A DNA stretch of 64,000 bases from Oscillospiraceae bacterium (GTDB taxonomy: Bacteria > Bacillota > Clostridia > Oscillospirales > Oscillospiraceae). The stretch spans positions 28,182 through 92,181 of the forward strand of contig JAILFJ010000129.1 of the NCBI GenBank assembly GCA_024697625.1. The letters run 5' to 3'. The number at the start of each line of letters is the position of its first letter. Position 1 is the stretch's first letter. The notes under the pieces were generated by a model that was given only the letters and a program-made list of their open reading frames with translations, had not been told where the DNA came from and made no database searches. Positions 52,986 through 56,878 of this stretch are shown piece after piece. The translations under genes were made by a program, and so were the position numbers.

Positions 52986-53543
52986 TTACGGATTCTCGAA
53001 TCTTGCGATCAGGTTCTCTACGCTCTGATCCATGACCTTCAGGATACGCTCCCGGGTGATTTCTCTGGGGAGCTGCATCCCCAGGTCCATCCACTGCGAG
53101 ATGAAGCCGATGGCGCAGTTTGCGTAAAACTTCACGATGAAGTCGAAATCCTGCCGGCTGATGTTCTTGCCCTCAGAGGCAATGACCGCGAAGCTCCGGA
53201 TACATTCCTCCATCCTCTCCTTCAGATAACGCAGCATATAGAGCCTGCTGTTGGAGTTGTAAACGTTCAGGGTAAAGCTGCTGTTCGACTCCAGATAGTC
53301 AAAATAGACCATCATATCCTCCAGCCAGTGGTCATAGATCACTTCGTGTGGAAAGACCCGGTCGGAATCCTGCTCAAATACCCATTCCAGGAGATCATCC
53401 ACATCGTCGAAATGGTAGTAGAAGGTCTGTCGGTTTACTCCGCAGATTTCGACGATATCCTTGACCGTGACTTTGTCAATCGGCTTCACCGTCATCATTT
53501 TGCGCAGCGCTTCTGCCAGGGCTTCTTTTGTTCCGCTCGCCAT
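52986..53543 (-). CDS. TetR/AcrR family transcriptional regulator
   Basis: KVTVKDIVEICGVNRQTFYYHFDDVDDLLEWVF HTH. Confidence 0.92.
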   Translation of the reverse strand: MASGTKEALAEALRKMMTVKPIDKVTVKDIVEICGVNRQTFYYHFDDVDDLLEWVFEQDSDRVFPHEVIYDHWLEDMMVYFDYLESNSSFTLNVYNSNSRLYMLRYLKERMEECIRSFAVIASEGKNISRQDFDFIVKFYANCAIGFISQWMDLGMQLPREITRERILKVMDQSVENLIARFENP

Positions 53544-53644
53544 CTGTCCTGTTCTCCTTTCCCAATCTGTTTAGACATTATAACATATAGTGATGGCTTG
53601 CGCAAATATTTTTCTGCCGTATTGTTTTTTGCCGTCTGTTAGCC

Positions 53645-53673
53645 GTGACAAACCATTGTTTATGTGATATAGT
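53645..53673 (+). promoter_or_regulatory. Promoter of Fe-S flavoprotein-hypA operon
   Basis: GTGACA-17 nt-TATAGT; small inverted repeat AAAC-CATT-GTTT in the spacer. Confidence 0.6.
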
Positions 53674-53762
53674 ACAGCATAGGAATGTGTAGATTGCGCA
53701 CAGAAAATGAGTCTTTGCACCTTCAAAATGACCGGGTTTTATTTATTGAAAGGAGAGTATTC

Positions 53763-56468
53763 ATGGCAAGAGAGATTTTATTTGACCTTGGCAAAATGAT
53801 TACGGACAGGATTCCCTATAAATTTGGCTTGAAGCGTCTGACCGAGAATGATCCTGAGTACATCATTCTGGATCGTGCCTGCAGCAGTGACGAGATCGCT
53901 GAGATCATGCTGAAGATGGGCCTTCGCAAGCCAAAGACCACTGCGGAGATTGCAAAGCTGACCGGGAAAAGCGAGCAGCGGGTCGAGGAGCTTCTGACCG
54001 ATGCGGCCATGCACGGGATCGTGGAATATAATTGGGAGAATCCGCAGCATGAGAAGCAGTGGTATGTCCAGCTCTTTGTTCCCGGCATTGCCGAGATGAC
54101 CAACATGGTTCTCAAGCAGGTCGAGCAGTATCCGGAGCTCGCATCCAGCTTTGACCAGATGACCTTCCTTCCTCTGGAGGGCAAGACGCACCTGTTCCCG
54201 CCGGGAGGAAACGGTGTCGGCATGCATGTTATTCCTGTGGAGAAGGCGATCAACGCAGTGAACAAGTCCATCTCCATCGAGCATATCTCCCACTGGCTGG
54301 ACAAATATGAGGGAAAGCTTTCCGTGGGCTACTGCTCCTGCCGCAACGCCAGACGTCTCTTCGGTGAGGGCTCCGGCGAGATTCAGGACGATTGCTGCAT
54401 CGGCCTCGGCGACTTTGCCCAGTACCTCATAGAGACCGGCAAAGGCCGTCCCATCACGAAGGAGGAAGCGCTGCAGATCTGCCAGCGCGCCGAAGAGAAC
54501 GGCTATGTCCATCAGGTCACAAACATCGACGGCGAAGACAAGATTTTCGGTCTCTGCAACTGCGATCTCGGCGTCTGCTTCGCCCTGCGGACAAGCCAGT
54601 ACTTCAACACGCCGAACCTCTCCGCTTCTTCTTACCGCGCCCACGTGGACAAAGACAACTGCGTCGCCTGCGGCAAGTGTGTTGAGGTCTGTCCGGCCGG
54701 AGCCGTCAAGCTTGGCCAGAAGCTTTGTACGAAACATGGTGAGGTCGAGTACCCGGTTCAGGAGCTGCCCACTGGTCTCAAGTGGGGCAAGGACAAGTGG
54801 AACCCGAACTATGTTTACGACAACCGCAAGAACTGCCACGAATCCGGCACGGCTCCCTGCAAAACCGCCTGCCCGGCGCACATCGCCATCCAGGGCTATA
54901 TCAAGCTTGCCAAGGAAGGCCGTTATCTCGACGCGCTGAAGCTCATCAAGCAGGACAATCCCTTCCCCTCCGTCTGCGGCTATGTCTGCAACCGCCGCTG
55001 TGAGGACGCCTGCACCCGCGGCGCTGTTGACAGGGCGCTCGCGATCGACGAGATCAAGAAATTCATCGCAGAGCAGGATCTGAAGAGTGAAGACCGCTAC
55101 GTTCCCGAGCTGCTTCGCCGCCGCCCCATTGACAAGGACTATGAGGAGAAGGTCGCCATCATCGGCGCCGGCCCGGCGGGTCTGAGCTGTGCATACTACC
55201 TTGCGCGCATGGGCTATGTCAACATCACCGTCTTCGACCGCAATCCGCAGCCGGGCGGCATGCTCATCATGGGGATCCCCAGCTACCGTCTGGATCGCAG
55301 CGCACTGAAGGGCGAGATCGACATTCTCGAAAGAATGGGCGTGAAGTTCCGGATGAACACGGAAGTCGGAAAGGACGTCACCATCCAGCAGCTTCGCGAC
55401 GAGGGTTACAAGGGCTTCTATGTCGCCATCGGTGCACAGAAGAGCTCCCGCCTCAACATCCCCGGAGAGGAGCTTCAGGGTGTGTACGGCGGTGTGGACT
55501 TCCTGCGCGAGGTCAATCTGGGCGGAAAGCCCGAGGTCGGGAAGAAATGTGCCGTCATCGGCGGCGGCAATGTCGCCATGGATGTCTGCCGGACCGCTGT
55601 CCGCCTTGGCGCCGAGACCTTCGTCGTCTATCGCCGCAGCGAAGCCGAGATGCCGGCAGATAAGGAAGAGATCGCCGAGGCAAAGGCGGAAGGCGTGAAG
55701 TTCTGCTTCCTGAACGCTCCTTCTGAGATCATCGGCAAGGATGGCAGGGTGACCGGCCTGAAGGTCGAACTCATGGAGCTGGGTGAGCCCGATGCAAAGG
55801 GCAGAAGACAGCCGGTCGGAACCGGAAAGTTTGAGACCATCGAGGTCGATTCCGTGCTCTCCGCAGTCGGTCAGAGCATTGACTGGGGCAGCCTGGATGT
55901 CGGCGCGCTCAAGACAGGCAAAAAAGGCAACGCGGAAGCGGATGCCGTCACCTATCAGACCGCGCAGAGCGACATCTTTGTCGGCGGTGATGTCTACACC
56001 GGACCGAAGTTCGCCATTGACGCCATCGCCGCCGGCCGCGAGGGTGCCGAGTCGCTCCATCGCTTTGTGCAGGATGGACAGAGCCTCACCAGAGGCCGTA
56101 ATCTGCGGGAGTTCTACGAGCTCAACAAGGACGATGTGGTCCTCGGTGTCGACAGCTTCGACCGCCCTGCCCGTCAGGAGATTCAGCACGATCCCGCCAA
56201 GGCCAGATCCTTCGAGCATGACCGCCTCACCTTCACGGAAGAGCAGGTCAAGGCCGAGGCCAGCCGCTGCCTGGGCTGCGGTGTCACCATCGTTGACCGG
56301 AACAGATGCATCGGCTGCGGCCTCTGCACGACGAGATGCATGTTCGACGCCATCCATCTGGAGCGCGACGTGCCGGAGGCCTCCACGATGATCCGCTGCG
56401 AGGACAAGGTCGGCCCGCTGCTGAAGAACGTCGCCAAAAAGAGCGTCCGGATCATCCGCAAGGGGTAA
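53763..56468 (+). CDS. Multi-domain Fe-S/FAD/NAD(P) oxidoreductase (GltD-like) with N-terminal winged-helix-like and Cys-rich modules
   Basis: CSCRNARRLF...DDCCIG; CVACGKCVEVCPAGA; CKTACPAHIAIQGYIKLAKEGRYLDALKLI...CGYVCNRRCEDAC; AIIGAGPAGLSCAYYLA; AVIGGGNVAMDVCRTA; CIGCGLCTTRCMFDA. RBS AAAGGAG before ATG 53763. Confidence 0.92.
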   Translation: MAREILFDLGKMITDRIPYKFGLKRLTENDPEYIILDRACSSDEIAEIMLKMGLRKPKTTAEIAKLTGKSEQRVEELLTDAAMHGIVEYNWENPQHEKQWYVQLFVPGIAEMTNMVLKQVEQYPELASSFDQMTFLPLEGKTHLFPPGGNGVGMHVIPVEKAINAVNKSISIEHISHWLDKYEGKLSVGYCSCRNARRLFGEGSGEIQDDCCIGLGDFAQYLIETGKGRPITKEEALQICQRAEENGYVHQVTNIDGEDKIFGLCNCDLGVCFALRTSQYFNTPNLSASSYRAHVDKDNCVACGKCVEVCPAGAVKLGQKLCTKHGEVEYPVQELPTGLKWGKDKWNPNYVYDNRKNCHESGTAPCKTACPAHIAIQGYIKLAKEGRYLDALKLIKQDNPFPSVCGYVCNRRCEDACTRGAVDRALAIDEIKKFIAEQDLKSEDRYVPELLRRRPIDKDYEEKVAIIGAGPAGLSCAYYLARMGYVNITVFDRNPQPGGMLIMGIPSYRLDRSALKGEIDILERMGVKFRMNTEVGKDVTIQQLRDEGYKGFYVAIGAQKSSRLNIPGEELQGVYGGVDFLREVNLGGKPEVGKKCAVIGGGNVAMDVCRTAVRLGAETFVVYRRSEAEMPADKEEIAEAKAEGVKFCFLNAPSEIIGKDGRVTGLKVELMELGEPDAKGRRQPVGTGKFETIEVDSVLSAVGQSIDWGSLDVGALKTGKKGNAEADAVTYQTAQSDIFVGGDVYTGPKFAIDAIAAGREGAESLHRFVQDGQSLTRGRNLREFYELNKDDVVLGVDSFDRPARQEIQHDPAKARSFEHDRLTFTEEQVKAEASRCLGCGVTIVDRNRCIGCGLCTTRCMFDAIHLERDVPEASTMIRCEDKVGPLLKNVAKKSVRIIRKG

Positions 56469-56471
56469 TCC

Positions 56472-56816
56472 ATGCACGAGCTGGGGACCATCTACTACGT
56501 CATCGACACAGTGGAGAAGCTGATGGAGGAGAACGACCTGAAGGCCGTCTCTTCCATCACCCTGGAGGTCGGAGAGGTCAGCGGGATCATTCCGGAATAT
56601 CTTCAGGATTTCTGGCTCTACGCCCGGGAAAAGACCGACCACTTCCAGCAGACGGAGCTCAGGATCGAAGAGCTGAAGGCTGTCACCTACTGCCAGGACT
56701 GTACAGGCACTTATCCGACCATCCCCCAGGGCAAAATCTGTCCGCACTGCGGCAGTCCGAATACCTTCCTGGTCACCGGAAACGAATATAACATCAAGGA
56801 AATAGAAGCCTGTTAG
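56472..56816 (+). CDS. HypA-like nickel metallochaperone/zinc-ribbon protein
   Basis: N-terminal MHEL; CQDC...CPHC zinc finger; LEVGEVSGIIPEYLQDFW as in HypA/HybF. Confidence 0.88.
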   Translation: MHELGTIYYVIDTVEKLMEENDLKAVSSITLEVGEVSGIIPEYLQDFWLYAREKTDHFQQTELRIEELKAVTYCQDCTGTYPTIPQGKICPHCGSPNTFLVTGNEYNIKEIEAC

Positions 56817-56836: not shown

Positions 56837-56878
56837 GCCCCGCGGCATTGTGTAAAAAATGCTGCGGGGCTGTTTTTT
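56837..56878 (+). terminator. Intrinsic terminator after hypA-like gene
   Basis: GCCCCGCGGCAT...ATGCTGCGGGGC followed by TGTTTTTT. Confidence 0.85.

Follow-up and report, generated by a model that had tools for sequence, protein, structure and literature searches.

The stretch of DNA examined here (64,000 nucleotides of contig JAILFJ010000129.1 from an Oscillospiraceae bacterium, G000:C35 in the present numbering; henceforth, the window) carries a TetR gene, a gene for an iron-sulfur (Fe-S) flavoprotein, a gene for a protein of the HypA metallochaperone family, and a terminator (Table 1). The initial annotation had described a divergent TetR gene, a flavoprotein, and a HypA homologue 3 nt downstream, and this layout is borne out by the reading frames and by domain searches, with the flavoprotein stop at 56468 and the HypA start at 56472. 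The flavoprotein-HypA pair is real, conserved, and co-evolving, and it is read here, with a probability of roughly 0.55, as an IsrA-type reductase together with its cognate metallochaperone, in which a six-cysteine (Cys6) site would serve as the active site and nickel would be the most likely metal; IsrA itself, from Acetobacterium wieringae ISORED-2 (VUZ27132.1; Kronen 2023, PMC10134865), is a putative isoprene reductase.

Layout of the locus and the Cys6 module

The flavoprotein frame is open from 53685, from which a product of 927 aa had originally been proposed; this start was rejected as 26 aa too long, and the ATG at 53763 is taken as the start of a 901-aa protein because relatives begin at the matching position and an AGGAGAG ribosome-binding site lies upstream. 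The winged helix, Cys-rich module, ferredoxin, flavin adenine dinucleotide (FAD)/nicotinamide adenine dinucleotide (phosphate) (NAD(P)) domains, and second ferredoxin that had been assigned to the protein were all found, and an AlphaFold model of the whole chain is good (predicted local distance difference test 91.7; predicted template modelling score 0.91). Within the Cys6 module, C191, C193, R194, C212, H250, C265, N266, C267, and C272 are each kept in at least 97% of 113 copies. The module belongs to no Pfam or NCBIfam family and gave no PDB fold match; no solved structure was found for it, and in a structure search the module alone matches winged-helix proteins only.

Table 1. Features of the TetR-flavoprotein-HypA locus (positions of the window)
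Feature	Position	Strand	Basis
TetR family regulator, TetR_N + TetR_C_8	52986..53543	-	Pfam domains; divergent to flavoprotein gene
Promoter-like site GTGACA-17-TATAGT, TG before second hexamer (TG-extended, 10/12)	53645..53673	+	motif scan
Ribosome-binding site AGGAGAG, serves 901-aa start	53751..53757	+	
Fe-S flavoprotein, 901 aa, IsrA-like	53763..56468	+	domains, conservation, predicted fold
Winged-helix domain, residues 1-115	53763..54107	+	
Cys6 module, residues about 140-290	54180..54632	+	C191xC193R, C212, H250, C265NC267, C272
First 4Fe-4S ferredoxin motif (Fer4), C300-C303-C306-C310	54660..54692	+	
Fer4_20 (DPD domain II) Fe-S region, residues 353-441	54819..55085	+	domain search
FAD/NAD(P) domains, Pyr_redox_2, residues 463-758, NfnB/GltD-like	55149..56036	+	
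C-terminal Fe-S motif (Fer4), C836/C839/C849/C852/C855/C859	56268..56339	+	
HypA, 114 aa	56472..56816	+	PF01155, Ni-site start M1-H2-E3, Zn ribbon C74xxC77...C90PxC93
Intrinsic terminator, 13-bp stem then T run	56837..56870	+	z = -5.7 vs shuffles

The FAD half of the model matches the NfnABC and StnABC subunits in a fold search, and these are also its closest counterparts in sequence, so that the flavoprotein might be regarded as an Nfn-like enzyme that keeps redox balance as an NAD(P)H:ferredoxin oxidoreductase and whose N-terminal module is a mere electron outlet; the window copy, which has no flanking substrate genes, would suit such a role. However, the N-terminal 290 aa lie outside the full-length similarity, the Cys/His set is invariant and tied to HypA even when the module stands alone, and the module-bearing copies, up to seven per genome and with differing neighbours, look substrate-specific, and an Nfn-like function is accordingly considered unlikely. 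With its extra N-terminal module, the flavoprotein also falls under the equivalog cut-offs of its best NCBIfam matches, and it is not assigned to NfnB or GltD.

The downstream protein scores 99.7 bits against PF01155 (cut-off, 28.9) and has the MHE start and two Cys pairs of the HypA metallochaperone family, whereas against the hydrogenase-maturation equivalog TIGR00100 it reaches 65 bits, below the cut-off of 88.1. This shortfall, the structural zinc site found in nearly every HypA copy, and the compatibility of the Cys6 site with an Fe-S cluster, which was considered also by Kronen et al. (PMC10134865), are in keeping with a different role, in which HypA is a zinc-ribbon partner for structure or electron transfer, or else a chaperone for Fe-S or zinc, and the Cys6 site holds iron only. 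Such an iron-only site is judged rather unlikely, although it deserves serious attention, since the nickel-binding MHE start is invariant in 98/98 HypA copies (MHE and the zinc cysteines each being kept in at least 97/98), the Ni/Zn site CHxDA is kept in 66/68 neighbouring HypB proteins, and the joint recruitment of HypA and HypB fits the known nickel-delivery pair. A nickel site in the Cys module is likely but putative.

As for the boundaries of the operon, which had been said to be set by a dedicated promoter and a strong terminator, the terminator is indeed strong, but the promoter-like site is weak because three such sites were found where 1.5 are expected by chance. An imperfect 14-nt direct repeat (53578-53591 and 53660-53673) lies between the TetR and flavoprotein genes and is possibly part of a promoter or operator. 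The TetR protein scores 96 bits against the DhaS activator model TIGR02366 (cut-off, 129) and is not a DhaS by that test. No Rfam elements were found in the window.

Conservation of the pair and the client of HypA

The survey covered relatives of the window family together with 80 named GTDB loci (Lachnospiraceae, Oscillospiraceae, Sharpea, Treponema, and others), the latter being the best 80 matches and hence an uneven sample. HypA lies directly downstream in 94 of the 118 flavoprotein copies that have room for it (26/43 in the family set and 68/75 in the named set), and HypB adjoins the flavoprotein in 49/101 copies. In a mirror-tree comparison, HypA distances follow flavoprotein distances with r = 0.80; when HypA paralogues are swapped within genomes, the correlation falls to 0.65 ± 0.05, with 0 of 2000 swaps reaching the observed value, and for 18 pairs of multi-copy genomes it is 0.76 versus 0.12 ± 0.13 after swaps. 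HypA and the flavoprotein co-diverge as cognate pairs. The proposed tie between the two proteins is supported, the pair being widely conserved, co-diverging, and present in many genomes that have no HypD.

Neighbouring genes differ even among relatives that are 80-90% identical. TetR, which had been counted as part of the module, was rejected as a conserved component, with a TetR-like gene within 1.5 kb upstream in 5/101 copies; TetR homologues of 63-64% identity lie 3-4 kb upstream in three relatives (L097, L101, and L102). A module-profile search of the same genome matched seven loci, several of which are cut by contig ends; the match on C151 is weak and concerns a short protein that stands alone. 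A single full-length relative is plasmid-borne (Subdoligranulum variabile, 56% identity). A similar predicted membrane protein of about 340-370 aa stands beside the flavoprotein in L113 (7714-8832), L127 (7885-8928), and L169 (12096-13175), and may correspond to the DUF5692 protein that has been reported next to IsrA homologues. GntR-type regulators of similar sequence occur near flavoprotein genes in L127 (12146-12853), L169 (13239-13961), L015 (8306-9007), and L057 (8482-9225). At L015 1104-8209 (G000:C74), a flavoprotein paralogue is accompanied by a TetR gene, an MMPL/RND transporter gene upstream, and an EFR1-type ferredoxin gene downstream, with no HypA.

The absence of hydrogenase and urease genes, which the initial annotation had emphasized, holds for the window but not genome-wide, because contig C75 carries a Group-4-like NiFe hydrogenase locus (L019 3232-14737) that includes Mrp-type antiporter genes and has a HypA, HypC, HypD, and HypE of its own. 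The large subunit keeps both CxxC motifs (RVCGIC and DPCFSC), and no HycI-type protease gene was found in the genome. With a NiFe hydrogenase at hand, the HypA beside the flavoprotein could in principle be a displaced hydrogenase-maturation protein; this alternative was rejected as highly improbable, since C75 has a HypA of its own, the hydrogenase HypAs form a well-supported clade (100/95) that is separated from the flavoprotein HypAs by a 99/97 branch, and HypA is kept in flavoprotein genomes that have no HypD. In 28 of 37 other flavoprotein genomes HypD gave no match, and a 29th (G036) gave only a 22-bit match under the cut-off. Two findings had been named in advance as fatal to the idea, a NiFe-hydrogenase locus lacking its own hypA and a pairing without conservation; the former is not seen because the C75 locus carries its own HypA, and the latter is at odds with the frequency of HypA directly downstream.

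In these 29 HypD-less genomes, 41 of the 47 HypA genes stand behind a module gene, or 43 after correction for contig ends; among the six exceptions, two lie behind flavoprotein genes that are truncated at a contig end, and one lies behind the thioesterase of an isomerase cassette. Carbon monoxide dehydrogenase (CODH) occurs in six of the 29, once in the form of split fragments, and one of the six (G125) also has a real urease, the other urease matches being 35-50 residues long, near the cut-off, and taken as amidohydrolases. The remaining 23 genomes, several of the set being incomplete metagenome-assembled genomes, have none of HypD, CODH, and real urease, the three nickel systems to which the screen was confined. 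The evidence supports a HypA that is dedicated to the flavoprotein, not to hydrogenase.

In two genomes, HypA lies directly behind stand-alone proteins of 325-327 aa that consist of the module and ferredoxins only. At L176 3449-4777 and L177 4050-5387, stand-alone Cys-module ferredoxins are followed by HypA after 3-6 nt and lie near 3-hydroxyacyl-CoA dehydrogenase-like genes. A similar order is seen in the published isr operon, an isoprene-regulated set of five genes (oxidoreductase, two hypA, hypB, and a module ferredoxin) in which every module-bearing gene has its own hypA behind it (PMC10134865). Because HypA follows the stand-alone module ferredoxins, and the isr operon is built alike, the N-terminal Cys module, rather than the flavin half, is the likely client of HypA.

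The C179 paralogue and the proposed reaction

On contig C179 (L014 3-8039), genes for an adenosine monophosphate (acyl) ligase, an acyl carrier protein (ACP), an acyl-ACP thioesterase, a flavoprotein paralogue, and HypA follow one another in this order, with two HypB genes behind HypA on the minus strand (L014 8781-10117). Divergent to this series are a gene for a CrtISO-like FAD protein and an isomerase gene (L014 1055-2443, minus strand), the product of which is a homologue of the polyenoic fatty acid isomerase of Cutibacterium acnes (PDB 2b9w, E = 2e-136); the alignment keeps R88, F168, and F193 (chain numbering), which we take to be functional residues. The isomerase cassette recurs in G004, G036, G080, and G084, and the flavoprotein lies in the isomerase cluster itself in 3/7 loci (G000, G036, and G014). 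In G084, 1.2 kb separate the CrtISO-like gene from a HypB beyond it, and about 6.4 kb separate the thioesterase from the flavoprotein; the cassette thioesterase of G080 has HypA directly behind it (L200 11929-12285, G080:C34) and no flavoprotein there; and no flavoprotein or Hyp gene is near the isomerase loci of G004 and G110. Of 121 genomes, 18 have the flavoprotein, and all seven with the isomerase fall within these 18 (p = 5e-7, a value that ignores kinship). The company of the C179 paralogue with an isomerase homologue and acyl-activation genes suggests that the flavoprotein family includes reductases of conjugated fatty acids. The conjugated-linoleate reductase once purified from Butyrivibrio was reportedly smaller, so that caution is advised with this fatty-acid reading.

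It is quite conceivable, though not the expected outcome, that the saturating enzyme of the C179 cluster is the CrtISO/retinol-saturase-like FAD protein instead of the flavoprotein, in which case the lipid link would be uninformative on the IsrA family. Both the partial CrtISO-like frame at C179 and a full-length relative of it in L066 match the carotenoid isomerase/phytoene desaturase families, and the gene adjoins the isomerase in 6/7 loci, versus the flavoprotein's three; by contrast, the retention of Hyp genes at the two further cassettes (HypA in G080 and HypB in G084) and the confinement of the isomerase to flavoprotein genomes favour the flavoprotein.

In the proposed mechanism of the IsrA-type reductase, the NfnB-like FAD domain would take up electrons from NAD(P)H, and these would pass along the row of 4Fe-4S clusters to the Cys6 module at the N-terminus as the active site, where the conjugated C=C bond of a hydrophobic substrate would be hydrogenated; HypA, with HypB acting in trans, would insert the metal, most likely nickel, into the module. 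As to the chemistry, the best guess is that a conjugated double bond is reduced, given the work on isoprene and dienes in A. wieringae and the lipid genes beside the paralogue. Several points weigh against this interpretation: IsrA itself is still "putative" (PMC10134865); the Cys6/CxC module could hold an ordinary Fe-S cluster; 24 of the 118 flavoprotein copies have no HypA nearby, and there the chaperone may be dispensable or supplied in trans; and neither the window locus nor its near relatives (L096-L108) have an adjacent HypB.

A bolder and doubtful extension is that the Cys6/His set constitutes a new Ni-Fe-S active site, matured by a dedicated HypA/HypB without HypC-F; the rumen clostridial family would then include the conjugated fatty acid reductases of ruminal biohydrogenation, with the C179 cluster as candidate locus. 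To our knowledge, few nickel enzyme classes are known, and a strong lead to another is offered by this family, which is widespread in gut and rumen, has a HypA to itself, and often occurs in genomes that lack NiFe hydrogenase maturation, urease, or CODH. The family would also supply a client for HypA/HypB genes that are now annotated to hydrogenases these genomes appear to lack, and the isomerase-linked paralogue makes the search for a rumen conjugated-linoleate reductase directly testable.

Comparison with IsrA and other known systems

The initial annotation had called the module undescribed; to the extent that architecture and context allow a judgement, the two being compared by description, the window pair is a member of the IsrA family, which was described in 2023 together with the nickel hypothesis. 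IsrA is isoprene-induced and 901 aa long; nickel insertion has already been proposed for its Cys6 site, which includes two CxC motifs (C180/182 and C254/256), and among 988 IsrA homologues HypA was found in a fraction of 0.73, HypB in 0.56, and TetR in 0.21 (PMC10134865). Strains Y and N, in which the isr cluster is present, reduce both isoprene and butadiene. No paper linking the IsrA family to linoleate or the rumen was found in the collection of papers searched, and the main text of the IsrA paper makes no mention of linoleate, rumen, or gut (PMC10134865); new here are the evidence that HypA serves the flavoprotein rather than hydrogenase and the link to fatty-acid isomerase genes.

IsrA and its clade 9 homologues share with the window protein the length of 901 aa, an uncharacterised N-terminal region of about 270 aa with the Cys6 site, the Fer4, DPD-II, FAD/NAD(P), and C-terminal Fer4 domains, and HypA as the next gene. 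The window copy thus has the full-length domain set, the six cysteines with two CxC motifs (C191/C193 and C265/C267, 74 residues apart as in IsrA), and the adjacent hypA of clade 9, while a nearby hypB, which is frequent but not obligatory in that clade, is absent. The family-wide co-occurrence of HypA and HypB is shared as well. Unlike the five-gene isr operon, the window operon comprises the oxidoreductase and hypA only, with no HypB, second HypA, or module ferredoxin; unlike IsrA, the window copy has a TetR gene upstream and a gut/rumen clostridial host with several paralogues. The resemblance to the C. acnes isomerase system concerns the C179 paralogue only, no such gene being near the window copy.

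The FAD subunits of the NfnB/StnABC/GltD type (9bov, 8oh5, 9n5u, and 5jca) resemble residues 353-841 of the flavoprotein, that is, the Fe-S region and FAD/NAD(P) domains, at about 37-41% identity, but are devoid of its N-terminal winged helix, Cys6 module, and HypA linkage. Similarly, the window HypA has in common with the nickel metallochaperone of hydrogenase and urease (PF01155; Helicobacter pylori HypA, 6g81 and 2kdx) the fold family, the MHE nickel site, and the CxxC...CPxC zinc ribbon, whereas it differs in its score below the TIGR00100 cut-off, in belonging to another clade than the genome's own hydrogenase HypA, and in its client, which is apparently the flavoprotein.

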